From IMG/VR virus record IMGVR_UViG_3300031787_010453, positions 1 through 41,998 of that record: DNA of 41,998 nucleotides; one strand, given 5' to 3'. This stretch comes from a virus. Below, one piece after another: positions 4,927 to 38,800 of this stretch (position 1 is its first letter; each line of letters opens with the position of its first letter). The notes beneath the pieces were generated by a model that was given only the letters and a program-made list of their open reading frames with translations, was not told the DNA's origin and did no database searches. A program made the translations under genes and the position numbers.

Positions 4927-4945
4927 CAAAAAATTAAAAAAAAGA

Positions 4946-4977: not shown

Positions 4978-4983
4978 TAAAAC

Positions 4984-5065: not shown

Positions 5066-5093
5066 AAGTTAAACAAAAATTTTTACAAAAAGA

Positions 5094-5125: not shown

Positions 5126-5164
5126 TAAAACAAAATTAGAAAAAAGAAATATAAAAATACACAT

Positions 5165-5237: not shown

Positions 5238-5242
5238 CAAAA

Positions 5243-8915: not shown

Positions 8916-8934
8916 TAACAAAATAAAAATAACT

Positions 8935-14854: not shown

Positions 14855-15678
14855 AACAGAAAATAAAAATAAACTTCTCAGATTTTTGGGGTGGTTTTGA
14901 CAAAACAAATAACTACTTTTTTAATCTTTTGAAAGATGAATTCGATATTGAGATTTCAAATAACCCTGATTTTTTATTTTTTTCAGTTTTTGGAAATCAA
15001 CATCAATACTTTAATTGTAAAAAAATATTTTATACAGGTGAAAATGTTGCGCCACCTCTTGGTTATTGTGACTGGTCCTTTTCATTTGACTATTTAGATG
15101 ATTTTAGAAATTACAGACTACCCCACTATTTACTTTATGATGGTTATTATGAATTATCAAGACCAAAAATAATTGATGAGTCTATGGCAAATAGAAAGTT
15201 TTGTAACTTTGTAGCCTCCAATGGTGCTTGTGAAAAAAGAAATAGTTTTGTAACAAAATTATCTAAATATAAAAAAGTTGATTCTGGTGGTCGTTGGATG
15301 AATAATATCGGATATGCTGTTTCGGATAAAAGAAAATTTCAATCAGAATATAAATTTTCTATAGCTTTTGAAAATAATGCATATAGACCGGAATTTCCTG
15401 GTTATACAACAGAAAAAATTATGGAACCAATGACTGTCAACTCTATTCCTATTTACTGGGGAAATCCTTTAATACACCAGGAGTTTAATGTCAAATCATT
15501 TGTAAATTATTATGATTTTAGTGATGATGATGAAATGATAGAATTTATAATTGATTTAGATAATAATAATAGTAAATATTTAGACATGTTAAACCAACCA
15601 TGGTTTGATGACTATAATATACCAGAAAATAATAAGATTGAAAATATAAAATCTTTCTTATATAAAATCTTTAGCTAA
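14851..15678 (+). CDS. Alpha-1,3/4-fucosyltransferase (GT10 family)
   Basis: 275 residues. The C-terminal half has the GT10 donor-binding signature: YKFSIAFEN (about 167-175), then GYTTEKIMEP (184-193) and IPIYWG (199-204). An upstream VASNGACEKRNSF (121-133) matches the R-x-x-F segment of the family. It would transfer L-fucose from GDP-fucose, exactly the donor made by fcl and gmd in the same operon. No signal peptide or membrane anchor, so it should act in the cytoplasm. Confidence 0.85.
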   Translation: MKQKIKINFSDFWGGFDKTNNYFFNLLKDEFDIEISNNPDFLFFSVFGNQHQYFNCKKIFYTGENVAPPLGYCDWSFSFDYLDDFRNYRLPHYLLYDGYYELSRPKIIDESMANRKFCNFVASNGACEKRNSFVTKLSKYKKVDSGGRWMNNIGYAVSDKRKFQSEYKFSIAFENNAYRPEFPGYTTEKIMEPMTVNSIPIYWGNPLIHQEFNVKSFVNYYDFSDDDEMIEFIIDLDNNNSKYLDMLNQPWFDDYNIPENNKIENIKSFLYKIFS

Positions 15679-15727
15679 AAAAATCAGCATTTTTAAGAAG
15701 AAATAACTCAAAAAAAAAATTAAAAAA

Positions 15728-16288
15728 ATGAAATCTTTACAAGAAATTTATGAAAATTATTCTACTCCTGTCGGAGACGGTGATAAAGGAACACTACATA
15801 GCTATATACCCATTTACTCAGAACTTTTAGAAAAATATAGAAAAAATTCTAATTTTTTAGAAATTGGTGTTTCACTTGGTTATTCTATGAAAATGTGGAT
15901 CGATTATTTTATTGAATCTGAAATTATTGGTATAGAATTAAATCCTCAATATAGTAATCCAAATTGCATGATAAAAGAACTTATGGAAGATTCAAGATGT
16001 GAAATTTGGATAGCGGATGCTACTAGTGATGAAATCATAGATAAAATTGATAATAGACTATTTGATGTTATTATAGACGACGGTAGTCATATGCTTCAAG
16101 ACCAGATAAAATCCTTTCTACTATTGAAATCAAAAATGAAAGAAGGTGGTATCTATATAATAGAAGACATAGAAAATATTTCAAATAGTTCAGATGTTTT
16201 TTATAGCCTACACAATAATTGTGAAATAATTGATAACAGACATATTAAAGGTAGACATGATGACGTACTTGTTATTTATAGATTCTAA
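15728..16288 (+). CDS. SAM-dependent methyltransferase (class I)
   Basis: 186 residues. SAM-binding motif FLEIGVSLGYS (43-53), acidic ribose-binding residue in IIGIELNP (about 66-73), and FDVIIDDGSHM (112-122) as in Methyltransf_24 and cephalosporin-hydroxylase-like enzymes that modify sugars. Separated from the previous gene by a 50-base A-rich gap and followed by a typical A-rich leader before the epimerase. Expected to methylate a sugar of the glycan. Confidence 0.7.
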   Translation: MKSLQEIYENYSTPVGDGDKGTLHSYIPIYSELLEKYRKNSNFLEIGVSLGYSMKMWIDYFIESEIIGIELNPQYSNPNCMIKELMEDSRCEIWIADATSDEIIDKIDNRLFDVIIDDGSHMLQDQIKSFLLLKSKMKEGGIYIIEDIENISNSSDVFYSLHNNCEIIDNRHIKGRHDDVLVIYRF

Positions 16289-16303
16289 AAAATAAAAATA
16301 ATT

Positions 16304-17311
16304 ATGAAAAAAGTTTTGATTACGGGAATAGCTGGACTACTTGGAAGTAGATTAGCAGACTGGATTATTGAAAATAAACCAGAATATGAAATAGTTGGTA
16401 TAGATGATTTAAGTGGTGGATACTTAGAAAATGTCAATAGTAAAGTTAATTTCAAAAAAATTAATTTAGTAAATCAACAAACAGAAGTTAATTCATGTTT
16501 TGAAGAACACAAATTTGATTATGTTTTTCATTTTGCCGCTTATGCTGCTGAGGGTTTATCGCCTTTTATAAGAATGTATAATTACGACAATAATTTAAAA
16601 GCAACTGCTGGTATAGTAAATCAGTGTATAAAACATAATATTAAACGATTAGTATTTACATCTACCTTAGCGGTTTATGGTCACGGCTACGGTGGAATAT
16701 TTGATGAAGAGCAAATACCTAAACCAATCGATCCATATGGTGTGGCAAAGTATGCATGTGAAATGGACATTCAAATTGCGGGAGAACAACATGGTTTAGA
16801 TTGGTGTATCATAAGACCACATAATGTTTATGGGTTAAAACAAAATATCTGGGATAAATATAGAAATGTTTTAGGTATTTGGATGTTTCAGTATTTAAAT
16901 AATGAACCAATGTCAATTTTTGGAACAGGTGAACAAACAAGAGCTTTCAGTTTTATTGACGATAGTTTAGAACCGCTGTGGAATTCCGCAGTAAAAGAAG
17001 AGGCATCTAAACAAATCATAAACTTAGGCGGTATAGAAGAATATTCAATCAATGAAGCTAACACGATTCTAAGAAAGGTAATTGGAGGTGATATAGATAT
17101 ACAATATAAAGAAGCTAGACATGAAGTCAAACATTCGATTCCTACTTTTCAAAAGTCTATAGATATATTAGGATTTGAACATAAAACATCACTAGAGGAT
17201 GGTCTAAATAGAATGTGGAACTGGGCAAAAAATCAACCAATAAGAAGTAGATTTGTTTGGGATGAATATGAAATTGAAAAAGGTATTTACTCCTTCTGGA
17301 AAAATAAATAA
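16304..17311 (+). CDS. NAD-dependent sugar epimerase/dehydratase (extended SDR)
   Basis: 335 residues. Glycine motif GIAGLLGS (8-15), HFAAYAAEG (76-84), Ser120/Thr121 in TSTLAVYG, and Tyr145-x3-Lys149 (YGVAK). The architecture is that of UDP-glucose 4-epimerase-like enzymes; the C-terminal substrate-binding half (GTGEQTRAFSFIDD) fits too. Specific substrate not assignable from sequence. Adds a second nucleotide-sugar route beside GDP-fucose. Confidence 0.8.
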   Translation: MKKVLITGIAGLLGSRLADWIIENKPEYEIVGIDDLSGGYLENVNSKVNFKKINLVNQQTEVNSCFEEHKFDYVFHFAAYAAEGLSPFIRMYNYDNNLKATAGIVNQCIKHNIKRLVFTSTLAVYGHGYGGIFDEEQIPKPIDPYGVAKYACEMDIQIAGEQHGLDWCIIRPHNVYGLKQNIWDKYRNVLGIWMFQYLNNEPMSIFGTGEQTRAFSFIDDSLEPLWNSAVKEEASKQIINLGGIEEYSINEANTILRKVIGGDIDIQYKEARHEVKHSIPTFQKSIDILGFEHKTSLEDGLNRMWNWAKNQPIRSRFVWDEYEIEKGIYSFWKNK

Positions 17312-17317
17312 TACATT

Positions 17318-17998
17318 ATGTTAGATTTAAGAATGATAGACATAATAGCAGTTTCATCAGATAAACCAATTGAAACTATAAGATCGTTACGATATTCAAC
17401 AAAAAATGTAAAGTTTGGAAATATTAAATTTTTGACACATTGTGAAAAAGAAGAAATTAAAGTTGATACGGAAGGAATTGAAATTGTAAAAATTGATGAA
17501 ATAAAATCACATAGAGAATACAATGATTTTTGTTTGAGATTAAATGATTATACACAAAATGATTTTATTTTAATAGTTCAGAATGATAGTTTCATAACAA
17601 ATCCAGAAAAATGGACAAATGAATTTTTAAAATATGATTATATAGGAGCACCTTGGACCGTTCAACAATCTTTAGATTGGGGTATTCCAAATAGAGTTGG
17701 TAACGGTGGATTTTCTCTTAGAAGTAAAAAATTTTTAGAATACTCTTCTATTTTTAAAAGTTGTAATGGTGCTAATGAAGACGGATTTCTAACTAATTTC
17801 ACTCTCAACTATGCCAAAAAATATGGTATAAATTACGCACCAGTTGAATTAGCGCAATTATTCTCTATTGAAAAAATAGAAGAAGGTAAAAATTATGACC
17901 CAAGTCAACATTTTGGTTTTCATGGCAATCATATTTATAAAATAGCAGAAGAATATTTTAAAGAATATAGTAGTCACATAAAACGTACTAAATCATAA
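17318..17998 (+). CDS. DUF5672-like glycosyltransferase
   Basis: 226 residues. FILIVQNDSF (83-92), YIGAPW (108-113) and GNGGFSLRS (128-136) are the typical DUF5672 landmarks, a GT-A related group found in glycan clusters. The start is ATG 17318; a second ATG at 17333 (MIDIIAV) is equally plausible because the strand IDIIAV is normally close to the N-terminus. Last plus-strand gene of the island; it overlaps the convergent minus-strand gene by 11 bases. Confidence 0.65.
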   Translation: MLDLRMIDIIAVSSDKPIETIRSLRYSTKNVKFGNIKFLTHCEKEEIKVDTEGIEIVKIDEIKSHREYNDFCLRLNDYTQNDFILIVQNDSFITNPEKWTNEFLKYDYIGAPWTVQQSLDWGIPNRVGNGGFSLRSKKFLEYSSIFKSCNGANEDGFLTNFTLNYAKKYGINYAPVELAQLFSIEKIEEGKNYDPSQHFGFHGNHIYKIAEEYFKEYSSHIKRTKS

Positions 17999-18602
17999 CA
18001 TTTTTGGCACTTTCATAAAATTCACTTTTAATATTTATAAATACATCATGGTGATTATTAATTGATTTTATTTTTTCAAAGCCATATTTATTTAAATAAT
18101 CAAAATTTGTGGGAGTGCCATTAAAATTATGTATTTCAACAATTATAAGATGTATGAATGTATTTTTAAAATTTATACCTTCAATTACTTCATTTTCATA
18201 ACCTTCAACATCTAAACTTAAAAAGTGAACCTCATTAATATCATTTTTTGATAGTAATGAATCAAGTGTTTTGCATTTATATTTTGTTGGGTTCCAATGA
18301 GTTGATAAATTATTATTTATAATTCCTCCTATCATATAGTGTGAAAAATCACCTTCAATTTCATCGTAAATATAGTTACTACTGACTAGAACATAATTTT
18401 CTAGTATAGTTTTTGGTCTATCTGAAGAATAAATTGAGTTAAAATCCGTTTTAGGCTCTACGACTAATCCTGACCATCCATTTTTTTCAAGTAAAAAGGT
18501 ATTGTTTTGATCGACAGGATGTGATCCACCAGCCTCAACAAATATTTTATTATTTCCAAAAATATTCAAAACGATACTATCTAAATTATTTTGTGCTGCC
18601 AT
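17988..18602 (-). CDS. FkbM-family methyltransferase
   Basis: 204 residues. IFVEAGGSHPVDQNNTFLLE (20-39) is the SAM-binding start, VVEPK the second acidic strand, and FLSLDVEGYENEVIEGI the FkbM signature. FkbM enzymes O-methylate sugars and polyketides. It ends the minus-strand glycan operon that starts at 23603 and meets the plus-strand operon tail to tail with an 11-base overlap and no visible terminator. Confidence 0.8.
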   Translation of the reverse strand: MAAQNNLDSIVLNIFGNNKIFVEAGGSHPVDQNNTFLLEKNGWSGLVVEPKTDFNSIYSSDRPKTILENYVLVSSNYIYDEIEGDFSHYMIGGIINNNLSTHWNPTKYKCKTLDSLLSKNDINEVHFLSLDVEGYENEVIEGINFKNTFIHLIIVEIHNFNGTPTNFDYLNKYGFEKIKSINNHHDVFINIKSEFYESAKNVMI

Positions 18603-18628
18603 TATTAATTATTTTTTTTATTTTTTTT

Positions 18629-19402
18629 TTATTTGAACCAGTAAATTCCACATCTGTCTACATTCTTAATTTCTGATGTAATTTTTTTTGATTCTCTAAA
18701 ATCATGAACACATTTTTTACAACCATCAAGACAATAGTCGTCAATAATTATTGGCGCGCCATCAACAACTTTATCATACAAACTATAAAAAACATCATGA
18801 GTAGACTCATACATGTCACCATCCATTCTTAGAAGTGATATTTTATTGATATTATGATTATCTGGTAAAGTTTCTCCGAAAAATCCTTCAATAAAAATAA
18901 CGTTCTCATCGAGGCAATCAAAAAGACTAAAATTTGATTTTACATCTTGTAAAGAAACAGAAAGTGATTTATAGGTATGATGTAAATCACCATAATCTGC
19001 TTCAAATTTTCCGCTAGGTGGTGGTAATCCTTTGAAAGAATCACAAACAAAAACCTTTTTATCTAAGTTGTATAATTTACAATAGTATTTCATAAAAATA
19101 GTCGCGCCACCTCTCCAAACTCCAGTTTCTATTAAATCTCCTTCAATTTGATTAATTCTAACAAAATCTAACAACTGATGTAGATTTTCTAATCTTTTTA
19201 AACCAATCATAGTAAAGCCATTAACAGGTTCATCCATACCCTCAATTCTATTAGTCGGAACTTCAATAATTTTTTCTAAAATATTTTTATCAGGTATTAT
19301 ACCTTCATTAAAAAAAAGATTTAAATGATTTTTATCAACAACACAACCTAAAAGTATGTATTTCAAAAAATCTAATTTTTCTTTTATAATAATTTCATTC
19401 AT
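18629..19402 (-). CDS. TylF/macrocin-type O-methyltransferase
   Basis: 257 residues. GDLIETGVWRGGATIFM is the SAM motif; VFVCDSFKGLPPP, VIFIEGFFGETLP, LRMDGDMYESTHD and APIIIDDY follow in the order of the TylF family, including the metal-binding acidic residues. It would O-methylate a sugar hydroxyl. The preceding and following genes are also methyltransferases, so three lie in a row. Confidence 0.85.
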   Translation of the reverse strand: MNEIIIKEKLDFLKYILLGCVVDKNHLNLFFNEGIIPDKNILEKIIEVPTNRIEGMDEPVNGFTMIGLKRLENLHQLLDFVRINQIEGDLIETGVWRGGATIFMKYYCKLYNLDKKVFVCDSFKGLPPPSGKFEADYGDLHHTYKSLSVSLQDVKSNFSLFDCLDENVIFIEGFFGETLPDNHNINKISLLRMDGDMYESTHDVFYSLYDKVVDGAPIIIDDYCLDGCKKCVHDFRESKKITSEIKNVDRCGIYWFK

Positions 19403-19408
19403 CTTCTG

Positions 19409-19990
19409 TTATTTTTTTTTAAGTATTGTTAAGCCATTGTTATTAGTAAATCTTTCATGAATTTTCCAATTTTTACCCTTTTCAGTATCTAAAAAATCTA
19501 CAATTGCATTCCATAAACCTTGATTTTTTTGTTCTTTATTTTTTATCTCATTACTAGCATGTTGATATATTGCTTCGTCTATATATTCAAAAGACGTTGT
19601 ATCGTGTAAAATTATATATTTAGAACATTTATCAGAGTGAAGTTGTAGTTCATAGAAAAGTTGATTATATGTATGTAAAGTATCAATAAAAAGTAAATCA
19701 GTTTCTTCAATTTCAATTTTTAATACATCTGCTGTAATGAATTGATACTCTATTTTATATTCGTTTGCTAATTGAATGACATTATTAATTTTTGGATCTC
19801 TTAAAATATCATAACTTATCATTTTTTTTGGATTTGAAAGTAATAATGGCCATGTTGAAGATACCCATCTCACACCCATCTCAGTTATATGTTCACATTC
19901 ACATGCGTATTTTAATAGAGTTGGTAAATGCTCATTTATATCAGAAATATTCCTACACTCGTTTTCATAAATTACTTTAATTTTTTCCAT
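19409..19990 (-). CDS. SAM-dependent methyltransferase-like protein
   Basis: 193 residues. HITEMGVRWVSSTW (about 34-47) in the SAM-motif position, MISYDILRD as second strand, ADVLKIE, and LLFIDTLHTYNQL with the D-x-x-H pattern of Methyltransf_24-like enzymes. The glycine motif is degenerate (EMGVRWVSS), so activity is less certain. Overlaps the next upstream gene by 14 bases. Confidence 0.65.
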   Translation of the reverse strand: MEKIKVIYENECRNISDINEHLPTLLKYACECEHITEMGVRWVSSTWPLLLSNPKKMISYDILRDPKINNVIQLANEYKIEYQFITADVLKIEIEETDLLFIDTLHTYNQLFYELQLHSDKCSKYIILHDTTSFEYIDEAIYQHASNEIKNKEQKNQGLWNAIVDFLDTEKGKNWKIHERFTNNNGLTILKKK

Positions 19991-20645
19991 CGTTTTTATA
20001 ATTTTTATATAATTCTTTCATTATAGATATATCTATATCTCTATTATTGTCATTTTTACATCTGTAATGATAACACTTTGTATGTATTAAGCTTAAATCA
20101 ATTCCTTTTGTGATACTAACTCTATCACCTTCAATTAGAGAAATATTATTTTTTACCAATATCTTACCAATAGATACATCTTCAATAAGTGAATGGTCCC
20201 AATTATTTTTGTTTTTTACTATTGTTTTAACAACATCTCTTGATAAAATACTTCCACCACCAGAACAAAATTTAATACCATTATGAACTCCGATTACACC
20301 ACAACAAAATTTTTCTCTTGGTTTATCAATTAAAAAGTCCTTTAACATATTTTTATTTAAATAAGATGAGCAATTCATTTTAAAAACATAATCAAATTCA
20401 AAATTAGCTAAAACATATTCTAATGATTGTATCACCTTATGACCTAGGTGAGACATACCGTCTGGTGAAGTTGTAAACAACTCATCTCCAATCAAAACTA
20501 TATCTTCATTATCGCCTTTACCATAGTAATATATAGTTTGAAAACCATCAACTATTTCACTATCCCAAGTCTCTCTTACGGTTCTTACAAGTCTTTCGTA
20601 AATTGAATTATCTTTAACAGATAAAACCATTATTAGTATTTTCAT
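19977..20645 (-). CDS. GT31/Fringe-like glycosyltransferase
   Basis: 222 residues. TVRETWDS near 23-30 and FCSGGGSILSRDVV (127-140) match the galactosyltransferase/Fringe pattern (R-x-T-W and F-x-S-G-G-G). The position expected to carry DDD reads KMNCSSY (89-95), so the metal-binding acidic motif is missing. It may be inactive, use another metal site, or be a related family. Overlaps neighbours on both sides. Confidence 0.55.
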   Translation of the reverse strand: MKILIMVLSVKDNSIYERLVRTVRETWDSEIVDGFQTIYYYGKGDNEDIVLIGDELFTTSPDGMSHLGHKVIQSLEYVLANFEFDYVFKMNCSSYLNKNMLKDFLIDKPREKFCCGVIGVHNGIKFCSGGGSILSRDVVKTIVKNKNNWDHSLIEDVSIGKILVKNNISLIEGDRVSITKGIDLSLIHTKCYHYRCKNDNNRDIDISIMKELYKNYKNDGKN

Positions 20646-21387
20646 AACTATTAATTATTTTGTGATAAAGTTCTTCAGTCAAGTTAAGTTCTTTAAATTG
20701 ATTCCAGTCATCTATTACTATAAATGGAAATTTATTTTCATAGAAGCTCATATTTATACTTCTTGTAACAATTGGAATACTTTTCAAGTAAAAAGACTCC
20801 CATGTTTTATGACAATCTATTCCGTTACCGTTAGGCGATATCACAAAAAAACTTTTAGAAATATTTCTGAGATATGTTTCAAAATCCACTCTATTAGAAT
20901 TTAGTATAGGATAAACGCAAGATAAACATTTACTTCTCTCGATGATATTGGTATTAATGTCTAAATTACAATAGATTAAATTTTCTTTTTTATTATTTTC
21001 AGAGATTATTTTTTTTATTATATCTACATTTCCATGTGGCCACCTTTTATTTGCTATACCAATTGGTATTGATTCTAATTTATCATGATAGGTGTTAATA
21101 TTTTGGCCAAACCATCTTAATAAAAATTTATTATCAATAATACTATTATATTTAGAATCTATGCACAAATCACTATTATGTGTATAGAGAATAAAATTTT
21201 TATTAATTTTTTGTAGTATATGTGATTCAAATTCAAATAAAAGATCAGTTTTGACAAAAATTTTCATACCATCAAACTGATTTATATTATCTATAGTAAA
21301 TTTACTAAACTCATCATATATATAATCACAATTTTTTCTATAACCCATTCCAGTTATAAAAGGAGTTGAGTCATCCGTTACTAACAT
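20614..21387 (-). CDS. Exostosin-like glycosyltransferase (GT-B type)
   Basis: 257 residues. The C-terminal donor-site signature FVISPNGNGIDCHKTWES (181-198) followed by LKSIPIV (201-207) is typical of exostosin/GT47-like and related bacterial transferases. N-terminal half has the less conserved acceptor domain (SIPIGIANKRW, about 106-116). 32-base overlap with the gene downstream and 7 bases with the one upstream show compact operon packing. Confidence 0.65.
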   Translation of the reverse strand: MLVTDDSTPFITGMGYRKNCDYIYDEFSKFTIDNINQFDGMKIFVKTDLLFEFESHILQKINKNFILYTHNSDLCIDSKYNSIIDNKFLLRWFGQNINTYHDKLESIPIGIANKRWPHGNVDIIKKIISENNKKENLIYCNLDINTNIIERSKCLSCVYPILNSNRVDFETYLRNISKSFFVISPNGNGIDCHKTWESFYLKSIPIVTRSINMSFYENKFPFIVIDDWNQFKELNLTEELYHKIINSYENTNNGFIC

Positions 21388-22097
21388 ACAATATTTATTA
21401 ATTTTTCTATTTCCGATTTATAAGTTGTATACGGTCTAAGTGAGTGACAATCTATGTAATGTCCTTTTTTTAATGACTCTTCATCATATACCCAATAAAC
21501 TCTATCGATTCTATTTAAAGCCATCCCAAATTTCCAACCTCTATTTATAAGTATTATTTTATTCTTTTTTTCAAATTCATTTACACATTTACCAAAATAA
21601 AGCTCATCAGTGTCCCAACCTTGTTCAAATTTTGACAACCTATCACAATATTCATTAAATTCACAATTCAAATCCAAAATATCATAAAATATTTTACCCT
21701 TACCAACGTTATAACAAAGTGGATATCTGTCTTTAGAATAAGCATCAGAACTAAGTATAGCTAAGGCATCATCATCTACTTTATTTACAATGTTATTAAA
21801 ATAATAATGACTAAGTGGTAGCATATCTATATCAGATGTAATACAAACGTTTTCTAAGTAATACTTTGTGATATACATTCTTACTATCTGTGATTGAAAT
21901 TCTGTAGAGTGACCCTCAACTGATTTTATTTCATGTATTATATGATCACCATTATCAGTAACTAAATTTTTATCGGATATTAAAACTAGTATAGGTTTTA
22001 TTTTAATCAGATTAATCCACAGATCTCTGACTATAGGCCAGAAATCTAAATACATAGGATTACTATCAGAAGACACTATAGCATAATCAATTTTCAT
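21381..22097 (-). CDS. Glycosyltransferase, GT-A with DxD
   Basis: 238 residues. ITSDIDMLPL (87-95) holds the DxD (Asp89, Asp91) metal site. KIDYAIVSSDSN at the N-terminus and WDTDELYFGK downstream complete a GT-A-like layout. A closing GWKFGMALNRIDR and a His-containing C-terminus follow. Donor unknown. Overlaps both neighbours. Confidence 0.65.
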   Translation of the reverse strand: MKIDYAIVSSDSNPMYLDFWPIVRDLWINLIKIKPILVLISDKNLVTDNGDHIIHEIKSVEGHSTEFQSQIVRMYITKYYLENVCITSDIDMLPLSHYYFNNIVNKVDDDALAILSSDAYSKDRYPLCYNVGKGKIFYDILDLNCEFNEYCDRLSKFEQGWDTDELYFGKCVNEFEKKNKIILINRGWKFGMALNRIDRVYWVYDEESLKKGHYIDCHSLRPYTTYKSEIEKLINIVC

Positions 22098-22836
22098 TTA
22101 TACAATCTATTTTTTTAAAATTATTTATACCCATAGTTAATGCCAAATAGCTAACATTTGAATAGCAGTATAAAAAATAATTTGAATTAGATAATAAATA
22201 TGCATCTATCAACATTTCTTTATTGATTTTAGTTCTATTTTCTATAAAATGTATTGGTTTGCCATCTAAACTAATTGTTTTATCATTTCGGTGCCTAACA
22301 ATATTTCCAAATTTTGAAATAATATTATTTAAATAAAAAATATCATCAGTTGCTAAAAAAATATTATCTATAATATTGGTTGATAACATTTTTTCTATTT
22401 TTAGATAAATTGTTTCTAAGTTAGGAGTTGGTATTTCAGAATTTTTATCAGTTCCTCTTATATGTATTGATAGCGTTTTGTCGTTAATATACTTTTTCTT
22501 TTCTAATTCAAAATATTCAATATTTTTTATTTTGAAAAACATATTAAAGATTTTATTTTTTTCTTTAACAAGTTCAACATCACATAAAACGTGCGCATTG
22601 CTTGGATTAGGATATCCAGAAATATCATAAAATTTTTCTAAATCATAGATATACTCAGATACGTCATCTATTTTTTTAGTTTCAAAGATATCAAGAATCT
22701 CATCGTTTTCAATAAGAATATCATCGTTTTTAAAATTCTCGTAATGGTACTTACATACGTTTATTGTATTATTTAGTATTGCACCAAAACCAGCTTTTCT
22801 TTTACTCATACCACTTGCTTTATAAAAACTTTTCAT
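22087..22836 (-). CDS. Fucosyltransferase-like protein (GT23/NodZ superfamily)
   Basis: 249 residues from ATG 22836, which overlaps the upstream stop as ATGA; a slightly longer frame from TTG 22842 is less likely. HIRGTDK (125-131) is the GDP-fucose-binding motif H-x-R-x-T-D of alpha-1,6- and O-fucosyltransferases. NIFLATDD and LSNSNYFLYCYSNVSYLAL match the later donor-site strands of that superfamily. With the GT10 enzyme it gives two candidate users of the GDP-fucose made upstream. Confidence 0.65.
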   Translation of the reverse strand: MKSFYKASGMSKRKAGFGAILNNTINVCKYHYENFKNDDILIENDEILDIFETKKIDDVSEYIYDLEKFYDISGYPNPSNAHVLCDVELVKEKNKIFNMFFKIKNIEYFELEKKKYINDKTLSIHIRGTDKNSEIPTPNLETIYLKIEKMLSTNIIDNIFLATDDIFYLNNIISKFGNIVRHRNDKTISLDGKPIHFIENRTKINKEMLIDAYLLSNSNYFLYCYSNVSYLALTMGINNFKKIDCINEN

Positions 22837-23603
22837 TTGCAATATTTTTTTAAAATTTGCCAGAAATCCGGATGTCTTTTATTATTATCATCAAAAACAT
22901 CACCAACAAATTCATAGTTTTTTCTGACTGACGGAAATGATTTTATTTCGGATCCGTAATTAATATTAAATTCAGAATGTTCTAAAGATATATCTTTAAT
23001 TATTGGATAAATTATTTGACCTAAGAAGTCTTGGTCTTCTGCATGATATTTACCTTTATGAGGCCACTTCTTCCAATGTGACAAATATTCATCTATATTA
23101 CTGATAACTTTATTTCTAGCACCCCACATACCAGATAATATTGGTACTTGATGATATGGATGGTCTCTCATAATATGAAAATCTTTATCAGATTCAATCC
23201 ATTCATTCACTGCATCAACTTCTCTTTGAGATAATCTTGAGTCACAATCACGAGATAATATGATATTAACATCAGTATCTTTTAGAGCTAAAAATCTCCA
23301 GTAAAGACCAGAGTGATTAAATCTCACATCAATATTATTAAAAATATCATTATTATTTTTTTGCATTAAGACAACCTCAACATTATCACCTTTGATAGTC
23401 TCAACTAATTCTTTTTTTGAATCTTTGTCAATATAAAATCTACAAATCCAACCAGGATAATATAAATTAGCTAATTCTATATTTTTGAGAGCACCTGTCC
23501 AATAAATTGGATTATTACCCCATAAAGAAAATGTAATAATGTTATTCAAAATACTAATAAAATTTTTGAAATCAAATATAGTTGATAAATGATTAAATTT
23601 CAT
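22833..23603 (-). CDS. Glycosyltransferase, GT-A with DxD
   Basis: 256 residues, first gene of the minus-strand glycan operon. IILSRDCDSRLS (114-125) carries the DxD (Asp119, Asp121). IMRDHPYHQVPILSGMWG and YHAEDQDFL fit the acceptor/catalytic half, where the E-D-Q acidic cluster would be the base. TATATAATATATG covers the start codon region, an imperfect match to the late motif. Donor unknown. Confidence 0.65.
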   Translation of the reverse strand: MKFNHLSTIFDFKNFISILNNIITFSLWGNNPIYWTGALKNIELANLYYPGWICRFYIDKDSKKELVETIKGDNVEVVLMQKNNNDIFNNIDVRFNHSGLYWRFLALKDTDVNIILSRDCDSRLSQREVDAVNEWIESDKDFHIMRDHPYHQVPILSGMWGARNKVISNIDEYLSHWKKWPHKGKYHAEDQDFLGQIIYPIIKDISLEHSEFNINYGSEIKSFPSVRKNYEFVGDVFDDNNKRHPDFWQILKKYCK

Positions 23604-29056: not shown

Positions 29057-29794
29057 TTATATGAAATGATTTGTTACTTGTTTATCCAGATTATGTTCAT
29101 TGAATATATTAATAAGACTTTTATATTCTTCATCTGAACAATTTACTAAATATAAGTTTGAGTGTATAAAAGTTATCACATCACCGTTATTTTCATCTAC
29201 ATAATCTTCTTTCCAGAAGCCATAAAGTGGTCTAAAATCAGTTGATTCATAAACCATTTTCAGTCTTTCTATTACCTCATCTAAATGTTCGGGTAGAAAT
29301 ATATCAAGTGTCATATAAATAAAAGGATAAGCTTTTACTACTCCTCTTTCAATATTTTCTACAAGTAATTCCTCAAAAGTTTTACCAGTAACTCCAGACT
29401 TTTCAAGGTTAGTCCTTTTTTCTTCTACATCATCTAAATGTAACCACTCAACATTTCTTCTAAGAATTCCTTTATTTAGGTTTTTGACTGGATCCATAAA
29501 AAAATCAGACCATTTGTATCCAAATAAATCATAAGGTTTTTCTTCATACCAATTTCTTTCTTTCCACGACATCTCGTGATAAAGGTCAGATTGAATAGTT
29601 CTATCCCATTTTTGTGGAAAGAAAAGGTATCCACCATCAATAAACTTACTCAAAGCTTCAGCAGAATTATTATAGTTAAATTTAGTTATCTCATCATCTT
29701 CTAACTCTATAAAGAAATCATGTAATTCTGTATATGTTGGAAAGTGTATTTTACCAACAGACTCAAATAGTTTATATGATTTTATATACTTCAT
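29057..29794 (-). CDS. Leader-bearing protein, candidate head-packaged
   Basis: 245 residues from ATG 29794; a GTG three bases earlier is rejected because the ATG overlaps the upstream stop as TGATG. Begins MKYIKSYKLFESVGK, a nearly perfect copy of the leader at 33651 and 39231, with the candidate cut after L-F-E. The body is acidic and aromatic-rich (WKERNWYEEKPYDLFGYKW) with no family I recognise. Last gene of the leader cluster. Confidence 0.75.
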   Translation of the reverse strand: MKYIKSYKLFESVGKIHFPTYTELHDFFIELEDDEITKFNYNNSAEALSKFIDGGYLFFPQKWDRTIQSDLYHEMSWKERNWYEEKPYDLFGYKWSDFFMDPVKNLNKGILRRNVEWLHLDDVEEKRTNLEKSGVTGKTFEELLVENIERGVVKAYPFIYMTLDIFLPEHLDEVIERLKMVYESTDFRPLYGFWKEDYVDENNGDVITFIHSNLYLVNCSDEEYKSLINIFNEHNLDKQVTNHFI

Positions 29795-30630
29795 CACATT
29801 TTCAATAGTATTTTTAAAGTATAGTCATATATTGGACTTGAAGTGTCGAAATATCTTTCTTTTCTTGAAAAAGGCCAAAGAACTTCTTCATAGTCTAATT
29901 CTGCTGTAATCAAGTCAATTCTATCATCTAATTCTTTTTCTAAGTCTAATAAACTCATTTGACCTGTTCTGTGAGAATCTACCGATGACCAACCACCAAT
30001 ATCAATTACAATACCTGGTTGATACATACTAAGAACATTCTCAGGAGAATATAATTTAAGACTTTTCATCTCATAATCCTTAAGTTCAGTAAATTCAGAA
30101 AAGTCAAAATTCTGACACTGCCACTTTTTATCAGTAACATAATAGGCTTCTGGTGTCAATCTGAATTCTATATCATTGCCTGTTATTTTTGAGTAAGATA
30201 TTGTTGGTCTTACAATTTCAAAAATTATATTATGTAAAATATAACTTTTTCTTTTCATATCATCTGATTCAAAAATAGGCATATTTCCATTATACTTAAG
30301 ATCGTTACTATCATTTATCTTTTCGTAATCTCCATATAAAACAGAACAATAAATATTCTTTTCTTTTTCATCAGGCAGAGTATCATAGATTTCGAGCATC
30401 GCATCTTTTATATGATTAAGGTCAACCTCTGAAAGTATTTGAAACATTCTATCAACATGAGACTTTATTTTCTGCCACCAACCAGCACCTACAAAATGGT
30501 CAGTCCATCTTTCTAAAGTTGATATATCAGTATTTGACCAATGATTATTTCTGAGATAATCGTAGAAGTCAAAAATAGAATATTCTTTTTGAGACTCTAA
30601 AAAAGATTTATATGTTTCTAATTTTTTCAT
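29794..30630 (-). CDS. Leader-bearing protein, candidate head-packaged
   Basis: 278 residues, starting MKKLETYKSFLESQKEYS; the leader fits M-K-basic-x-x-aromatic-K-x-F-L-E-S. The body has WTDHFVGAGWWQKI and a C-terminal helix LDLEKELDDRIDLITAELDYEEVLWPF; no family recognised. Four-base overlap with the upstream 2H/exonuclease gene, one-base with the downstream leader gene, so the three are coupled. Confidence 0.72.
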   Translation of the reverse strand: MKKLETYKSFLESQKEYSIFDFYDYLRNNHWSNTDISTLERWTDHFVGAGWWQKIKSHVDRMFQILSEVDLNHIKDAMLEIYDTLPDEKEKNIYCSVLYGDYEKINDSNDLKYNGNMPIFESDDMKRKSYILHNIIFEIVRPTISYSKITGNDIEFRLTPEAYYVTDKKWQCQNFDFSEFTELKDYEMKSLKLYSPENVLSMYQPGIVIDIGGWSSVDSHRTGQMSLLDLEKELDDRIDLITAELDYEEVLWPFSRKERYFDTSSPIYDYTLKILLKM

Positions 30631-32333
30631 CTTAAAGTTTTTATTCTTTCTACTTGATATTTCATTATATCAACATCTTGATTTTGTTTAAGTAAATCAA
30701 TTATCTTTTGATACATTTGTATTGTTATCCTACAGTCTGTAATGGCGTCGTGATAACCCATCATATTAACTCCTAAGACCGGTCCTATTTTAGCCATTGA
30801 TGATGATATAAGTCCGTTATCTCTTGTAGATGTTCCTATAAAATCAATCATTTCTTTATATTTAGTATCTGTTTCAGCTAATGTTTGTAATAGAGGTAAG
30901 AAATATAACTGAATCAACATTTTAGTATCAAATACTTCGCTTTCAATTTTGTGACCGTATCTTCCACTTAGCATTGCCATATCAAAACTCGCATTTTGAG
31001 CAACTAATATATTTGGTGAGTAATTACTAACCCATCTGAAAAAGTCATCTACTATATCTTTTTCATTTTTATATTTATAATCACCTGATCCATAGTGATT
31101 AAACCCCAATACCCACTTAGTTTTATCCTCAGGTTGTAGAAACTTTGATTTAGTTTCATCTGTTAATTTTATCTTTTCATCAAATGTTCCTATTTCACTA
31201 AAATTGTTTGATTTGAAATCATACTGAGTTGCTATTGCAGATACTTGAGTTAATTGTTGTTGTTTTGGACCACCTAACCCAGTCGTTTCGGTGTCGCACC
31301 AGATAAACGGCAGTGTGGATTTAGATTCTAACCACTCTAATATTTCTGGTATAGTTTTATACCACATTTTATTTTCATTCAATCCTTCCTCTACCTTATC
31401 AAAATGTATATAAACTTGCTCAGATATCGTTCCTTCATTAAGTGTTTTAATTTTTGTTGAAAATCCTTCAGATTCTAAATAACTTATAGTTGCCTCAACA
31501 ACAGGACTTATTTCATTCCAAAACTCATCGTGAGTTAGTCTTCTTTGATTTTTAATCCAAACATAAGGACCATGTAACCAATAGTGTTTTTTATCTTTCG
31601 GTCTTATTAAGTCAATAAATGAATTAAGTTTGGAAGGTGACTCTGTGAATCCACTGATATGTGGTCTGTATCCTAAATCTTCTAATTCTAAAAGAATATT
31701 TCTTAAATAAGATTCCAATTCCAATCTAATTGGACTAGTTGGTAGTTTCCACTCAGAGTCATATTCTATACCTTCATGTTTAATTGATTCATTTGTTTTA
31801 TAGTCAAATTTAACTTTTTCACCCGATGGCATTGAGTAAGTAATCTTATCAACATTTTTTACTTCATATTTATAACCAGGATTGACATACTTTTTACCTG
31901 TTCCCTTTTTAACATAAGCAATTGTTATGTGTGGTTTGTAATCAGGATACTGATCTGAATTAGGAAACTTAGAAAGCTCATCGTGTAAGTATTGTAAAGC
32001 ACCATCCGGTTTTACATTAAACTTAACAACATCAAACTTCTCATTCTCAAAGATATCTATACCATCTACTACTATGTTTATATTGTCTGTAAAGTTATCA
32101 AATACAGATTTTACCATATCTGGAGTTACCGTATCATGAAGACCATAGAGTAAAGTAAGGTGTGGGTTATTTTGAATTCCGTATGTTGAATCTCCTTCTT
32201 CTTCATAAATATCTTCCTCATCAATAGATGATGTTATCTCATTCCAGTTACTAACTGGGATTTCGACCATAACACATCCATATTGATAGCCTGATGACTC
32301 CTTAATAAATTGTATGTAGTTTTTGATTTTCAT
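30627..32333 (-). CDS. Leader + 2H phosphoesterase + DEDDh exonuclease fusion
   Basis: 568 residues. Leader MKIKNYIQFIKESSG (cut after I-K-E). Residues 18-180: 2H phosphoesterase with the two catalytic motifs HLT (His58) and HIT (His135), as in LigT, CPDases and the T4 anti-CBASS protein Acb1. Residues 200-315: unassigned linker domain. Residues 325-550: DEDDh 3'-5' exonuclease with WCDTETTG (Asp347, Glu349), NASFD (Asp451) and HDAITD (His528, Asp533). Possible extra processing site L-N-E at 318-320 between the domains. Start overlaps the upstream stop by one base (TAATG). Confidence 0.8.
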   Translation of the reverse strand: MKIKNYIQFIKESSGYQYGCVMVEIPVSNWNEITSSIDEEDIYEEEGDSTYGIQNNPHLTLLYGLHDTVTPDMVKSVFDNFTDNINIVVDGIDIFENEKFDVVKFNVKPDGALQYLHDELSKFPNSDQYPDYKPHITIAYVKKGTGKKYVNPGYKYEVKNVDKITYSMPSGEKVKFDYKTNESIKHEGIEYDSEWKLPTSPIRLELESYLRNILLELEDLGYRPHISGFTESPSKLNSFIDLIRPKDKKHYWLHGPYVWIKNQRRLTHDEFWNEISPVVEATISYLESEGFSTKIKTLNEGTISEQVYIHFDKVEEGLNENKMWYKTIPEILEWLESKSTLPFIWCDTETTGLGGPKQQQLTQVSAIATQYDFKSNNFSEIGTFDEKIKLTDETKSKFLQPEDKTKWVLGFNHYGSGDYKYKNEKDIVDDFFRWVSNYSPNILVAQNASFDMAMLSGRYGHKIESEVFDTKMLIQLYFLPLLQTLAETDTKYKEMIDFIGTSTRDNGLISSSMAKIGPVLGVNMMGYHDAITDCRITIQMYQKIIDLLKQNQDVDIMKYQVERIKTLR

Positions 32334-32755
32334 TAAAATGCTCTTCGTCGTTCTTTTTTATTTTTAAATATTTCGATAAATATATAATCTCTATATTCTG
32401 AAAATTGCAATTTATAATCAGGATATTTATCTGATAATCTTTTTAGACTAACTTTGACTTCTTGTAATAACTCGTTGTTAGTGTTATGATTTTCAATATG
32501 GTTATAAATAGAAGAATTTTGGTCACCAATAAGATTTGCTGTCTTAGCAGTTTTGTGGTCTATATCAACTATCGTTTTTAATGTAATAGTTATATATGGT
32601 TCTGTTTGATCACCCATCAACATGGAGACTGAATCTCTTTCTATTAATTTTATTTCAGCTCTCTCATCATCTAATAATTCGGCAAAACATTGATAAACAT
32701 AATCATAATCTATGTAATCATTTTCACTTTCATTAAATCTTCTTAGCCTTTTCAT
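32333..32755 (-). CDS. Leader-bearing protein, tandem paralogue A
   Basis: 140 residues, MKRLRRFNESENDYID. The leader ends F-N-E-S. The next block DYDYVYQCFAELLDD and a later NELLQEVKVSLKRLSDKYPDYK are shared with the neighbouring gene at 32792-33184, so the two are tandem duplicates. It ends in a basic tail KNKKERRRAF. Fold unknown; alpha/beta with a long central insertion compared with its copy. Confidence 0.7.
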   Translation of the reverse strand: MKRLRRFNESENDYIDYDYVYQCFAELLDDERAEIKLIERDSVSMLMGDQTEPYITITLKTIVDIDHKTAKTANLIGDQNSSIYNHIENHNTNNELLQEVKVSLKRLSDKYPDYKLQFSEYRDYIFIEIFKNKKERRRAF

Positions 32756-32765: not shown

Positions 32766-32792
32766 CTATTTTATATAGTTTTTTATTTTCAT
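32766..32792 (-). pseudogene. Nine-codon relic of the 2H/exonuclease gene start
   Basis: Between the two paralogues, the minus strand reads ATG then K-I-K-N-Y-I-K and a TAG. The functional gene at 32333 begins M-K-I-K-N-Y-I-Q-F after the same TAATG junction. The remnant shows that the duplicated unit was one paralogue plus the first bases of the downstream gene. Confidence 0.7.
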
Positions 32793-33184
32793 TAAAATGG
32801 ATATTGTTCTTTTTTCTCTTCACCACCAAATATGTTAATATGAATTGAATAACCAAATATGTCAAAATTAATTTTATAAGTTGGATATTCTTCTGATAAT
32901 CTATTTAAAGCAACTTCAACTTCTTGTAACAATTCGCTATTTGATTTTACGCCGTTTATGTAGTCAAATAATTTAGACTTTTCAATAGTGACAGTTCCTC
33001 CGTTATCTCTTCTTTCTGGATTAGATTGATTAATTTTCAAATCTATGGTAATATACTTTTGATAATCATTTTCAAATTCTCTAATTTGTGCTTTATTATC
33101 ATCTAACAATTCAGCGAAGCACTGATAAACATAATCATAATCTATATCAATTTTACTTTCATTAAATCTTCTTAGTCTTTTCAT
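32792..33184 (-). CDS. Leader-bearing protein, tandem paralogue B
   Basis: 130 residues, MKRLRRFNESKIDID. Shares leader, DYDYVYQCFAELLDD and SELLQEVEVALNRLSEEYPTYKI with the gene at 32333-32755. The central part differs more (ERRDNGGTVTIEKSKLFDYING), and the C-terminus ends FGGEEKKEQYPF. One-base overlap with the upstream leader gene. Function unknown. Confidence 0.7.
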   Translation of the reverse strand: MKRLRRFNESKIDIDYDYVYQCFAELLDDNKAQIREFENDYQKYITIDLKINQSNPERRDNGGTVTIEKSKLFDYINGVKSNSELLQEVEVALNRLSEEYPTYKINFDIFGYSIHINIFGGEEKKEQYPF

Positions 33185-33651
33185 TATATTTCTTCTATTT
33201 TATATTTCATAAATCTCATAAACTTGTTATGTAATTCATTTCTATCCTCTACATTAAATACAAGGTTATTAACTTTCATGTAACTAACCATTCTTGGAAA
33301 ATCATCTATTTTAGATATCTTATAACCTAAGTAGTCTAAACTATCTTCTAAGTGTTGATATTCTTCTGGATAAATCCTACTCAAATCTCCAGTTGTTTGT
33401 TTATAAACAAACATGTCAAATCCACTTTCATCTGGAACTAATTTTATTAAAAATAAAAAAGAACGTTCTTTTTCAGGTACACTATTTAAAAATTCATCTA
33501 TGTCTAAATTAATAAAGAATATATCTTTACTATCATCATTTTTTATAACAGCTATCTTATAGTCGTCTATTTGATTCTCAAAACAAGAAAGAATGACTTC
33601 TTCTAATTCCTGTTTAGACTCAAATAATTTATATGATTTAAGAAACCTCAT
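33184..33651 (-). CDS. Leader-bearing protein, candidate head-packaged
   Basis: 155 residues, MRFLKSYKLFESKQELEE. The leader SYKLFES is identical to that of the gene at 29794. Acidic alpha/beta body, no recognised family. First gene of the run 29057-33651, with an exact TTAATATATA motif five bases before the start. Confidence 0.72.
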   Translation of the reverse strand: MRFLKSYKLFESKQELEEVILSCFENQIDDYKIAVIKNDDSKDIFFINLDIDEFLNSVPEKERSFLFLIKLVPDESGFDMFVYKQTTGDLSRIYPEEYQHLEDSLDYLGYKISKIDDFPRMVSYMKVNNLVFNVEDRNELHNKFMRFMKYKIEEI

Positions 33652-33656
33652 AATTG

Positions 33657-33666
33657 TATATATTAA
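33657..33666 (-). promoter_or_regulatory. Putative phage late promoter motif TTAATATATA
   Basis: Exact match five bases from the ATG at 33651. It directly abuts the TTTG (33667-33670) of a divergent host-type promoter, so the two promoters are back to back. Confidence 0.5.
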
Positions 33667-33697
33667 TTTGTCATCTTAAAAAGGATTATTATCTTTG
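33667..33697 (+). promoter_or_regulatory. Host-type promoter (TTTG-19-TATCTTTG)
   Basis: TTTG 33667-33670 and TATCTTTG 33690-33697, 19-base spacer, upstream of the isolated plus-strand gene at 33714. Confidence 0.75.
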
Positions 33698-33713
33698 TAG
33701 AAATAATTAAAAG

Positions 33714-33905
33714 ATGGCAAGAGAAAAAGATATTATTAGATTAGAGAAAGAGATTAAAAGTAAAATGGCTCAGATTAAAAACAAAAAATTAGCACCATCT
33801 GAGTCTGGTATTGGAAAACTTATCAATCTAATGAAAACTTTTGATGAGCCTCTTTTTGATAAATTGATGTCTGATTATAAACAGATACTCAAAGATATAA
33901 AGTAA
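33714..33905 (+). CDS. Small basic helical protein, isolated plus-strand gene
   Basis: 63 residues (MAREKDIIRLEKEIKSKMAQ...), lysine-rich and helical. The only plus-strand gene in a minus-strand block of more than 20 kb, with its own well-formed host-type promoter. It ends next to the stop of the histidine kinase gene (33906). A separately controlled, probably early gene; function unknown. Confidence 0.65.
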   Translation: MAREKDIIRLEKEIKSKMAQIKNKKLAPSESGIGKLINLMKTFDEPLFDKLMSDYKQILKDIK

Positions 33906-35438
33906 TTATTTAACTTTAATCTTCATCTTAGTTCCGGTTGATATCTTTTCACAACTAAGTTCAAATCCGTGCTCTTTGATAATTGCTAAACAGATATTCA
34001 GACCAAGTCCGGCCTCTTCAATATCTTTGTGTTTAGCTTTAATAATCTTTTCAAATTGTCTTTCTGAAAGACCTCTACCATTGTCTTCTACAACTATGTT
34101 ATCTTCTTCTAAATAAATCTTGACTAATTTATTCTCACTATCATTATATTTGAGACCATTTTTAATTAAGTTGTCAACAGCATTCCAGAAAAGTGTTTCA
34201 TTTGCCTCTAAAGTTGTAAGTTCTCCTAATTCAACTTGCTGATGATAAGAAGTTTTAGAAATTGAATCTTCTAATAATTGTCTGATATCAACTTCTTTCT
34301 TTTCCAAAACAACATTTTGTTTTACTAAGTTTGTAAATTCATAAACACTCTTATAAACTTTTTGAGTGTGATTTAAACCTTCTCTAATCATTTTAACTGA
34401 TCCGTCAATCTTTAGATTTTTTAACTCATCTGGAGTAATTCTTTTTTCCAAAGATGAAATTCCTCTTGGTATATAAGTATTGATTCCTGAATGCATATCG
34501 TGTCTGATTATTCTAGCAGCATGTTCTAAATAAGTATTCTTTTTATTTATGTCTTCTAATTGTCTTTCAATTTCTTTATCTTGAACTTTAATAGTTCTTC
34601 TTTGTAAAAGTGCTAATACAGAAAGTATAAGAACGGTGATTGCTAAAATAGCACCCCATAGCCAATTTTTGATAACTTGTTTCTCTTCCTTTAATGTTTC
34701 TTTGTCAATATTCAAATCAATTACTTGTTTCTCTTTCTTTAAGGATTTGATATTAACATCTTTAGCATCAATTAGGTCTTGACTGCCATTGTTATCTATT
34801 AATTGCTTTTTTTCTTTTTGGATTTTTTCAATTTGATTATCAATTTGTTTAGAAAGATTTTCTAAATCTTCTTTTGATAAACTATTAAATGTTTGTGGAA
34901 GATTTTTAAGAAAATCTGCATCTTTTTTAAGACTTTGTAATTCAGAAATACTCAATTCTGTTTTAGATTCTTCAGTTTTTTTCTCCAATTTATATTCTTT
35001 TTCTAACTCATTTCTAATTTCCTTTCTAATTTGAGAAATATTATTATAGTATGAGCTATCTCTAAAAACGTCTTTTAGTCTAACTCCTTTTTTTTCAGAA
35101 AATCTTTTAATTTTAGAAAGGTAAAAGTCAGCTTCTTGATAAAGGCCTTTATTATAAAACTCTACTCCTAACTCTCTATAAAGTCTTGCTTGTTCAGTAG
35201 TTATTTTATTTACATCTTCTAATGAAGCTGGATTTAATTTATAAATTAATTCCATTATAGTCTCATCTTCCGGCAAGATAGGAACACCTTGGTCATAAAC
35301 TGCCTCATATTCATTTATCTTATTGTAAATAACATTTTCAGACTTATTTTTTAATGTGTCAATATATTGATTAAAATTTATTTGAGAAAATAAATTGCAT
35401 GAGAATAAAGTTATTAAAGTTAAAAGTAGTGGTTTCAT
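33906..35438 (-). CDS. Membrane sensor histidine kinase with TPR-like periplasmic part
   Basis: 510 residues. Signal peptide MKPLLLTLITLFSCNLFSQ; extracytoplasmic region with a TPR-like helix pair (82-112) and long coiled coil (140-255); one transmembrane segment (258-279, NWLWGAILAITVLILSVLAL); H-box RIIRHDMHSG with candidate phospho-acceptor His313; N-box DNLIKNGLKY (Asn423, Asn427); G1 EDNGRG (451-456); G2 GLGL (477-480). This is a complete flavobacterial-style two-component kinase. No response regulator is in the window. An exact late motif lies just upstream. Highly unusual for a phage; probably acquired from a host. Confidence 0.88.
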   Translation of the reverse strand: MKPLLLTLITLFSCNLFSQINFNQYIDTLKNKSENVIYNKINEYEAVYDQGVPILPEDETIMELIYKLNPASLEDVNKITTEQARLYRELGVEFYNKGLYQEADFYLSKIKRFSEKKGVRLKDVFRDSSYYNNISQIRKEIRNELEKEYKLEKKTEESKTELSISELQSLKKDADFLKNLPQTFNSLSKEDLENLSKQIDNQIEKIQKEKKQLIDNNGSQDLIDAKDVNIKSLKKEKQVIDLNIDKETLKEEKQVIKNWLWGAILAITVLILSVLALLQRRTIKVQDKEIERQLEDINKKNTYLEHAARIIRHDMHSGINTYIPRGISSLEKRITPDELKNLKIDGSVKMIREGLNHTQKVYKSVYEFTNLVKQNVVLEKKEVDIRQLLEDSISKTSYHQQVELGELTTLEANETLFWNAVDNLIKNGLKYNDSENKLVKIYLEEDNIVVEDNGRGLSERQFEKIIKAKHKDIEEAGLGLNICLAIIKEHGFELSCEKISTGTKMKIKVK

Positions 35439-37822: not shown

Positions 37823-38800
37823 TTATTTTTTCTTTTTTGATTCTCCAGCAAACGGACTTAATAAATGTTTTAGATTCCAAGATGGAATAAATTTCTTATT
37901 ATGTTTTTCATAGTCTTCGTATGATTCAATTCCTGAATCTACAACATTTTGATAGTATTGGATATTAGCACCTTGTTTATTTAAGTCGGATATTCTATCT
38001 CCAATGTCAATTCCTTTGGTCATTTTTCTTAACTTATTCCATTGATCGACCGTTTGTTGTCTTGGAAGAGATTCGTTTACATAATCTACAAAGTTTAAAA
38101 TCTTAGACTCAGATAACTGACCTTTAGACATTTCAATCACCTCTTTTGATGTTGTTGTGAAATAAAGACCGTCTTTTATAAACTCATTTCTGTTTGCAAT
38201 TGAAACTCCATTTTTACCAGGAAAAGCCGTTATAACAGAAAGAACTACTTTATCTCCTAATTTACCTAATTTAGCTCCAATAAAACTTAAAAAGGTAGTT
38301 TTTTCACCTTCACCCTGTTTTACTTTAATATTAAATTCATTACCTCTAGAATCTTTGTATGTATAAACATTCATAGATTTAAATTCATCTGAATTAGCAT
38401 CTAACTGATGGACATTTTCAACACCAACATCTGTTTTAGAATCTAAACCTAACCATTTAAACTTTTCAGCTTCATCTGGATTTGTAACTTTTGTTTCACT
38501 TGGACCAAACCCTTTGGTCATTTCAGTTGGTTTATTATTTTTAACTAACTCAACGATTGCTTTCTTTAAATCAACTCCTTTATCAAATTTAGAACCTGGT
38601 ATAGTTTCTTCAACATGTGAATCTGTTATATGAGATAAATCTCCTAATAATAGAATAAAGTCACCGGATTCATAAACTGTATCTTTATTTGCCTCAACTT
38701 TTCCTTTCAGAAATTGATTATTATCAATCATCGATTGAATTTGAGAGTATATTAATTCTTCCCCATCTTCTACATTTTCAAATAATCTTATGTGTTTCAT
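37823..38800 (-). CDS. Leader-bearing protein with internal leader-like site
   Basis: 325 residues, MKHIRLFENVEDGEE; leader ending L-F-E-N. Middle region with MNVYTYKDSRGNEFNIKVKQG and KVVLSVITAFPGK suggests a beta domain. At 233-244, KILNFVDYVNES repeats the leader pattern inside the protein and might be a second processing site. Basic tail SWNLKHLLSPFAGESKKKK. No family recognised. Overlaps the next upstream gene by four bases. Confidence 0.7.
   Translation of the reverse strand: MKHIRLFENVEDGEELIYSQIQSMIDNNQFLKGKVEANKDTVYESGDFILLLGDLSHITDSHVEETIPGSKFDKGVDLKKAIVELVKNNKPTEMTKGFGPSETKVTNPDEAEKFKWLGLDSKTDVGVENVHQLDANSDEFKSMNVYTYKDSRGNEFNIKVKQGEGEKTTFLSFIGAKLGKLGDKVVLSVITAFPGKNGVSIANRNEFIKDGLYFTTTSKEVIEMSKGQLSESKILNFVDYVNESLPRQQTVDQWNKLRKMTKGIDIGDRISDLNKQGANIQYYQNVVDSGIESYEDYEKHNKKFIPSWNLKHLLSPFAGESKKKK

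Follow-up and report, generated by a model that had tools for sequence, protein, structure and literature searches.

In phage T4, the first ten residues of the internal protein IPIII suffice for packaging, and the protease gp21 cleaves after the motif L/I-x-E (PMC9026906). The N-terminus of T4 IPII and IPIII, MKTYQEFIAE/A (a slash after E marks a cleavage or predicted cleavage position), served here as the capsid-targeting sequence (CTS) for comparison. Iyer et al. proposed in 2017 that phages inject multidomain proteins whose 2H domains act against RNA or nucleotide signals; these authors saw no polyvalent 2H domains together with RNA ligases and favoured RNase or signal-degrading roles (PMC5512222). 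Because this proposal came earlier, the concept of an injected 2H enzyme is not new. Acb1 contacts the base through E141, carries W147 in a C-terminal lid and leaves a product with a 3'-phosphate (PMC9117128). Jumbo phages carry RNA-repair sets consisting of a 2H enzyme, a ligase and a CCA-adding enzyme (PMC7824862).

We analysed a 42-kb virus record, the whole of which is called the window. It is most closely related to IMG/VR contigs that reach 476 kb in length and to the uncultured megaphages LR745206 (634,780 bases) and LR756502 (642,428 bases), which rank among the largest megaphages (PMC9723777). In the rightmost 14.4 kb of the window, the sibling contig G001 is 97.7% identical to it at the DNA level. 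From ~11.5 to 26.8 kb, the window has no DNA-level match in this otherwise near-identical sibling; positions 11484-23603 hold ~12 kb of sugar-nucleotide, glycosyltransferase-like and methyltransferase-like genes.

An ORF running from ATG to stop on the minus strand (Table 1) encodes a 568-aa protein that is identical to the product of G001 positions 33638-35344. The protein consists, in this order, of a leader, a 2H phosphoesterase, an orphan middle domain and an RNase T-like DEDDh exonuclease. A sequence-only reading of the window had placed a 2H phosphoesterase and a DEDDh nuclease in this one chain, and the coordinates, the residues it named, the Pfam matches and the invariance of those residues all agree with it. 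Pfam 2_5_RNA_ligase2 matched residues 47-144 (E=2.4e-9) and RNase_T residues 344-541 (E=4.1e-7), both above the curated cut-off. The two HxT motifs, H58-L-T60 and H135-I-T137, are invariant in the sequences of 31 relatives and, together with fold matches in the duplicated beta fold, assign the first domain to the 2H superfamily. The set D347, E349, D451, H528 and D533, all five invariant in 10 relatives, and an RNase H-like fold whose best matches were RNase T assign the last domain to the DEDDh exonucleases (RNase T/DnaQ). A Padloc match named 'DEDDh' was rejected as a defence system, being a generic nuclease model. A PDB sequence search with the single 568-aa protein returned nothing significant.

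The orphan domain, missed by the sequence-only reading, spans ~135 residues, from about residue 183 to about 317. Pfam gave no match to it and PHROG none of significance, and the viral contig scan with an all-ORF search returned the sibling G001 and otherwise chance-level matches; we therefore claim no function for it. At loci L005 and L015, where the 2H and DEDDh genes are separate, a candidate middle domain between them was rejected, since the gap holds an opposite-strand HNH-endonuclease-like gene recognized by eye (L005 8531-9292, L015 8492-9277). The exonuclease gene of L015 is itself interrupted and contains a GIY-YIG-like ORF.

Table 1. Positions in the window of the parts of the 568-aa protein, of neighbouring leader-bearing genes and of a second fusion
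Feature	Position	Strand	Remarks
Whole ORF, 568 aa	30627-32333	(-)	leader, 2H, orphan domain and DEDDh; Pfam
Leader, residues 1-12, MKIKNYIQFIKE	32298-32333	(-)	predicted prohead-protease site IKE12/S13
2H phosphoesterase, residues 13-182	31788-32297	(-)	Pfam; AF2 pLDDT 88; Foldseek LigT/Usb1/Acb1
Junction 1, T180-N181-E182/S183	31785-31796	(-)	possible relic leader end
Orphan middle domain, residues 183-320	31374-31787	(-)	confined to window and sibling G001
Junction 2, L318-N319-E320/N321	31371-31382	(-)	relic of the exonuclease's own leader
RNase T-like DEDDh 3'-5' exonuclease, residues 321-568	30627-31373	(-)	Pfam RNase_T, catalytic residues, RNase T folds
Neighbour, 278 aa, leader MKKLETYKSFLE/S	29794-30630	(-)	
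Neighbour, 245 aa from ATG, leader MKYIKSYKLFE/S	29057-29794	(-)	start set by comparison with G001
Neighbour, leader MKRLRRFNE/S	32333-32755	(-)	paralogue of the 32792-33184 gene
Neighbour, leader MKRLRRFNE/S	32792-33184	(-)	
Neighbour, leader MRFLKSYKLFE/S	33184-33651	(-)	
Second leader-leader fusion, 325 aa	37823-38800	(-)	C-terminal part stands alone as a leader-bearing gene in L006, L007 and L009
Relic leader KILNFVDYVNE/S in second fusion	38069-38104	(-)	aligns with starts of the separate gene, MKILKFNEFDEVNE/A and MKILKYLDFINE/S

Our preferred reading, which we hold at slightly less than even confidence, is that the ORF encodes two (probably three) leader-tagged proteins in one fused chain, which is delivered in the virion, divided by the protease and serves tRNA 3'-end repair. 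The leader would carry the chain into the prohead, where a gp21-type protease would cleave after IKE12, LNE320 and perhaps TNE182. The freed 2H phosphoesterase, orphan domain and RNase T-like exonuclease would all enter the cell with the DNA. The 2H enzyme would then open the 2',3'-cyclic phosphates that host defence RNases leave on tRNA and other RNA. When the RNA end has become a 3'-OH, the exonuclease would trim it, and restoring or sealing the trimmed end would fall to the leader-tagged CCA-adding enzyme and the T4-type RNA ligase of the phage. We infer the packaging, the cutting, the substrate and the order of these steps.

The sequence-only reading had instead favoured an Acb1-like role against CBASS. 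A virion-delivered, Acb1-like 2H enzyme would linearise cyclic di- and trinucleotides from the onset of infection, with the exonuclease as a separate cargo. Consistent with this, Pfam Acb1 matched 30 of the 31 2H family members (best E 2e-9), the 2H profile also matched the Acb1 chains 7t26 and 9q2g, and a YPDYxPHxT-like stretch is common to Acb1 and the window 2H domain. However, the Acb1 match of the window protein itself is borderline (24.9 bits for the whole protein and 27.4 bits for the 2H piece, with a cut-off of 27), whereas 2_5_RNA_ligase2 matched all 31 members and outscored Acb1 on the window protein, and the best PDB profile match was an archaeal LigT-type protein. The comparison of structures with Acb1, suggested earlier, did place Acb1 among the top folds for the 2H model, but Usb1, CPDase and LigT were matched about equally, so that structure gives no choice. 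By sequence alignment, neither the base-contacting Glu141 nor the lid residue Trp147 of Acb1 has an identifiable counterpart in the window 2H domain, and the C-termini do not align. T4 Acb1 itself has no leader. Thus, sequence and fold cannot separate the Acb1 type from the LigT/Usb1 type for this domain.

DEDDh exonucleases require a 3'-OH. The 3'-phosphate left by Acb1 should therefore block the DEDDh enzyme, and a direct hand-over is unlikely without a phosphatase, which makes the earlier suggestion that the exonuclease degrades the linearised signal further chemically awkward. A phosphatase is likewise needed for RNA repair; leader-bearing HAD-like proteins, a weak assignment made by eye, are encoded in the 476-kb relative G003 (86397-87053 and 131077-131559).

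Gene context moderately favours an RNA role for the 2H domain. The same 2H subfamily is fused to a CCA-adding enzyme in L033 (863 aa), L187 (1515 aa), L188 (2031 aa) and L197 (979 aa); these fusions sit in other phage lineages, and the partner in the window is the exonuclease. In L218, the subfamily is fused to the virion domain MuF. A leader-tagged CCA-adding enzyme and a T4 Rnl1-type RNA ligase occur in G001, G003 and G010, with the leaders MKIKRYRQFLE/S (E=4e-30) and MKLFRYMEFIKE/S (E=2e-20), respectively, in G001. The CCA-adding fusions and the tagged repair genes point to RNA or tRNA ends over cyclic nucleotides. RNase T trims tRNA 3' ends in cells. RtcB was absent from the records searched, which, like the lack of RNA ligases alongside the polyvalent 2H domains of Iyer et al., counts against repair. 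We conclude that the anti-CBASS role is not supported over RNA repair; it is a possible second choice and a rather unlikely one, and the case warns against labelling every phage 2H domain anti-CBASS.

Several further arrangements of RNA-related genes were observed. The L188 protein (83-6178) combines a SAM lyase, the 2H subfamily, a CCA-adding enzyme and a second phosphodiesterase, of the fungal tRNA-ligase type. The L033 protein (7968-10559) has, between its 2H domain and its CCA-adding enzyme, a possible RNA 2'-phosphotransferase-like segment; this candidate was rejected, as the match was weak and a PDB search with the segment found nothing. The L033 fusion retains an internal leader-like EIKLKEFFE/S. 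In L037, the 2H and CCA-adding enzymes are separate leader-bearing genes, and an 862-aa protein of L050 (7200-9788) joins a 2H domain to a HExxH metallopeptidase-like motif and a nucleotidyltransferase-like DLD motif, both recognized by eye. About 50 tRNA genes, two with undefined anticodons, lie in G003 132971-386898. The window also encodes a leaderless P-loop kinase (AAA_33, polynucleotide-kinase-like; 1895-2371) and a PHROG 'hydrolase', possibly of the peptidyl-tRNA hydrolase type (7903-8493), which could join the same RNA-repair pathway.

The N-terminal leader, already described as capsid-targeting-like, held up on closer comparison. It is T4-like and ends in an L/I-x-E site, Glu12 varies hardly at all among the 31 2H homologues down to 28% identity, and similar leaders occur in G001 and a relative phage. 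In 56 standalone 2H proteins, drawn from a wider scan than the 31 homologues, 50 N-termini contained [ILVMF]xE (shuffled mean 28, maximum 38 in 500 trials). Leader-like N-termini exceeded the shuffled counts in G001 (43 versus 12) and in G003 (83 versus 34), with the reservation that the motif is short and the patterns of this census loose. The consensus of 92 hand-picked leader N-termini is MKxLKxYxxFxES. Other leader-bearing proteins in G003 (L066-L089) and G001 (L090-L098) include a class I tRNA synthetase, an acyl-CoA dehydrogenase, a guanylate/adenylate cyclase domain, a DeoC-type aldolase and a DnaJ zinc-domain protein, all of which are odd cargo for a capsid tag. Among the leader-bearing genes of the window lies a histidine-kinase-like ATPase with an apparent N-terminal signal sequence (33906-35438).

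The leader might alternatively be a generic N-terminal sorting tag or a shared cassette start, in which case the proteins would be ordinary intracellular enzymes acting, for example, on RNA 3' ends or in replication. A great many genes, some of them metabolic, carry the leader, which would fit, as would the gp32-like gene adjoining the 2H-DEDDh locus. Some homologues have no leader: the CCA-adding enzyme and Rnl1 families each include leaderless members, and some leaderless Rnl1 homologues start immediately past the leader position, so that the leader looks like a removable add-on. Against a generic tag stand the resemblance to the T4 CTS, of which ten residues are enough (PMC9026906), and the agreement of the cut motif with head proteins. 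In G003 and G005, a T4-type capsid protein gene adjoins a gp21-type protease gene (profile match E=1.2e-5 and below cut-off in G003, above cut-off in G005); no such protease was found in the window or the sibling contig, both of which are genome fragments. The predicted site in the capsid proteins of G003 and G005, HSINE/NAYVNA, precedes the mature domain, approximately where T4 gp23 has its FLTE/A site, the N-terminal alignment being gappy. The protease(-scaffold) ORF of ~720 aa contains seven NE[SN] sites, with tandem EYIAE/N repeats in its scaffold-like part, and is the richest in [LI]xE[NSA] among 193 long ORFs (22.2 per 1000 aa; mean 2.7, SD 2.8). The INE/N or LNE/N motif of the exonuclease is the same as the INE/N motif of the capsid protein. 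This recurrence of [LI]xE followed by N or S makes it plausible that the 568-aa protein is targeted to the capsid, packaged in the head and cut into pieces, and we regard a generic tag as unlikely. Outside the fusions and the protease-scaffold, leader proteins are only weakly enriched in internal NE[SN], and we therefore argue for internal cut sites at the joints only.

In relatives, the 2H and DEDDh proteins are encoded by separate genes, each with its own leader. The 2H leader of L009 is MKIKKYIQFVKE/S and, two bases on, the DEDDh gene begins MKILKFEQINE/NKMWYK; separate DEDDh genes generally begin with leaders ending in [LI]NE/NKMWYK. The motif [LIV][NK]E/N is kept at the joint in 6/6 fusions and in 8/8 separate DEDDh proteins, and all six fusions retain [LIV]NE/N. 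The tripeptide L318-N319-E320, which the sequence-only reading had named as a possible cut site, is indeed present there and corresponds to the end of the exonuclease's former leader; the putative site thus now has an evolutionary explanation and is a likely one. The leaderless DEDDh genes of L006 and L008 begin MINEN, so that conservation of NEN is partly plain homology. In 4/6 fusions, a second xE/S or xE/G site lies beside the joint (window VEEG-LNEN, L003 IVES-LNEN, L004 LVES-LNEN, LR745206 ISES-INEN). Both joints fall below pLDDT 50 and are predicted to be disordered (residues 313-322, and a stretch of low confidence that starts at residue 182).

Well-supported branches of the exonuclease tree require at least four switches between the fused and the separate form, and the fusions involve two very different 2H partners. 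The exonucleases of L007 and L011 are fused to 2H domains only ~39% identical to that of the window, and the L011 exonuclease shares 94% identity with its unfused counterpart in L009. At junction 1, the pentamer KTNES has four occurrences in G001 and G003 together, all within three leader-bearing fusions (permuted pentamers: mean 0.23), and in the fusion at G001 56917-57702 it aligns with FNES of the adjacent gene's leader; TNE182 lies outside the [LI]xE pattern, which counts against a cut there. That the fusion stays uncut as a single two-enzyme protein with one substrate would suit the single chain and the direct adjacency of the 2H and DEDDh genes even when separate, as in L009, but a relic leader with a protease motif in a disordered joint and the existence of loci with 2H alone or DEDDh alone make this improbable.

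Beyond the virion-delivered repair fusion itself, we consider it possible, although we lean against it, that megaphage heads are loaded with a leader-tagged tRNA-repair kit whose fused members the prohead protease divides at relic leaders. The leaderless kinase of the window and the non-RNA enzymes in the leader set count against the repair reading. The enzymes of phage RNA repair are usually assumed to be synthesised once infection has begun. If repair enzymes are leader-tagged, repair would come in with the DNA, and translation-poisoning defences would be reversible before any phage gene expression. Relic leaders also point to a simple way in which proteins packaged separately could become multi-enzyme chains that are cut up, and they would make packaged cargo readable from sequence in uncultured megaphages. 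In the literature searched, we found neither this leader-relic route nor the RNase T-like partner nor tagged repair enzymes.

Like the window protein, T4 IPI, IPII and IPIII have a short N-terminal MK...F-x-E leader with a predicted gp21-type site and are likely packaged cargo. Here, by contrast, the cargo consists of recognisable RNA and nucleotide enzymes, the tag is found on dozens of genes, and tagged genes are joined head to tail. Polyvalent proteins are likewise multidomain and 2H-bearing, with disparate enzymatic domains in one chain (by Pfam in the window protein), and are probably injected and processed (PMC5512222); the passages considered here do not mention an RNase T-like partner. 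A built-in peptidase is common, though not universal, among them, whereas the 568-aa protein matched no peptidase in Pfam, PHROG or NCBIfam and would be processed by the prohead protease at relic leaders.

T4 Acb1 (57B) shares the 2H fold, both HxT motifs and the DYxPHxT stretch with the window 2H domain, which is longer, has another C-terminus without an identifiable E141/W147 lid and bears a leader. The LigT/Usb1/CPDase enzymes have the same fold and motifs and give the better family score; the window domain differs from them as a phage subfamily with a leader and fusion partners. RNase T, a DnaQ-type DEDDh enzyme, has the fold and the five catalytic residues of the window exonuclease, to which an N-terminal extension with a leader relic and the fused 2H domain are added. 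As in the jumbo-phage repair sets (PMC7824862), a 2H enzyme, an RNA ligase and a CCA-adding enzyme occur in one phage, but several of these parts here bear capsid-targeting-like leaders, which suggests delivery in the virion.
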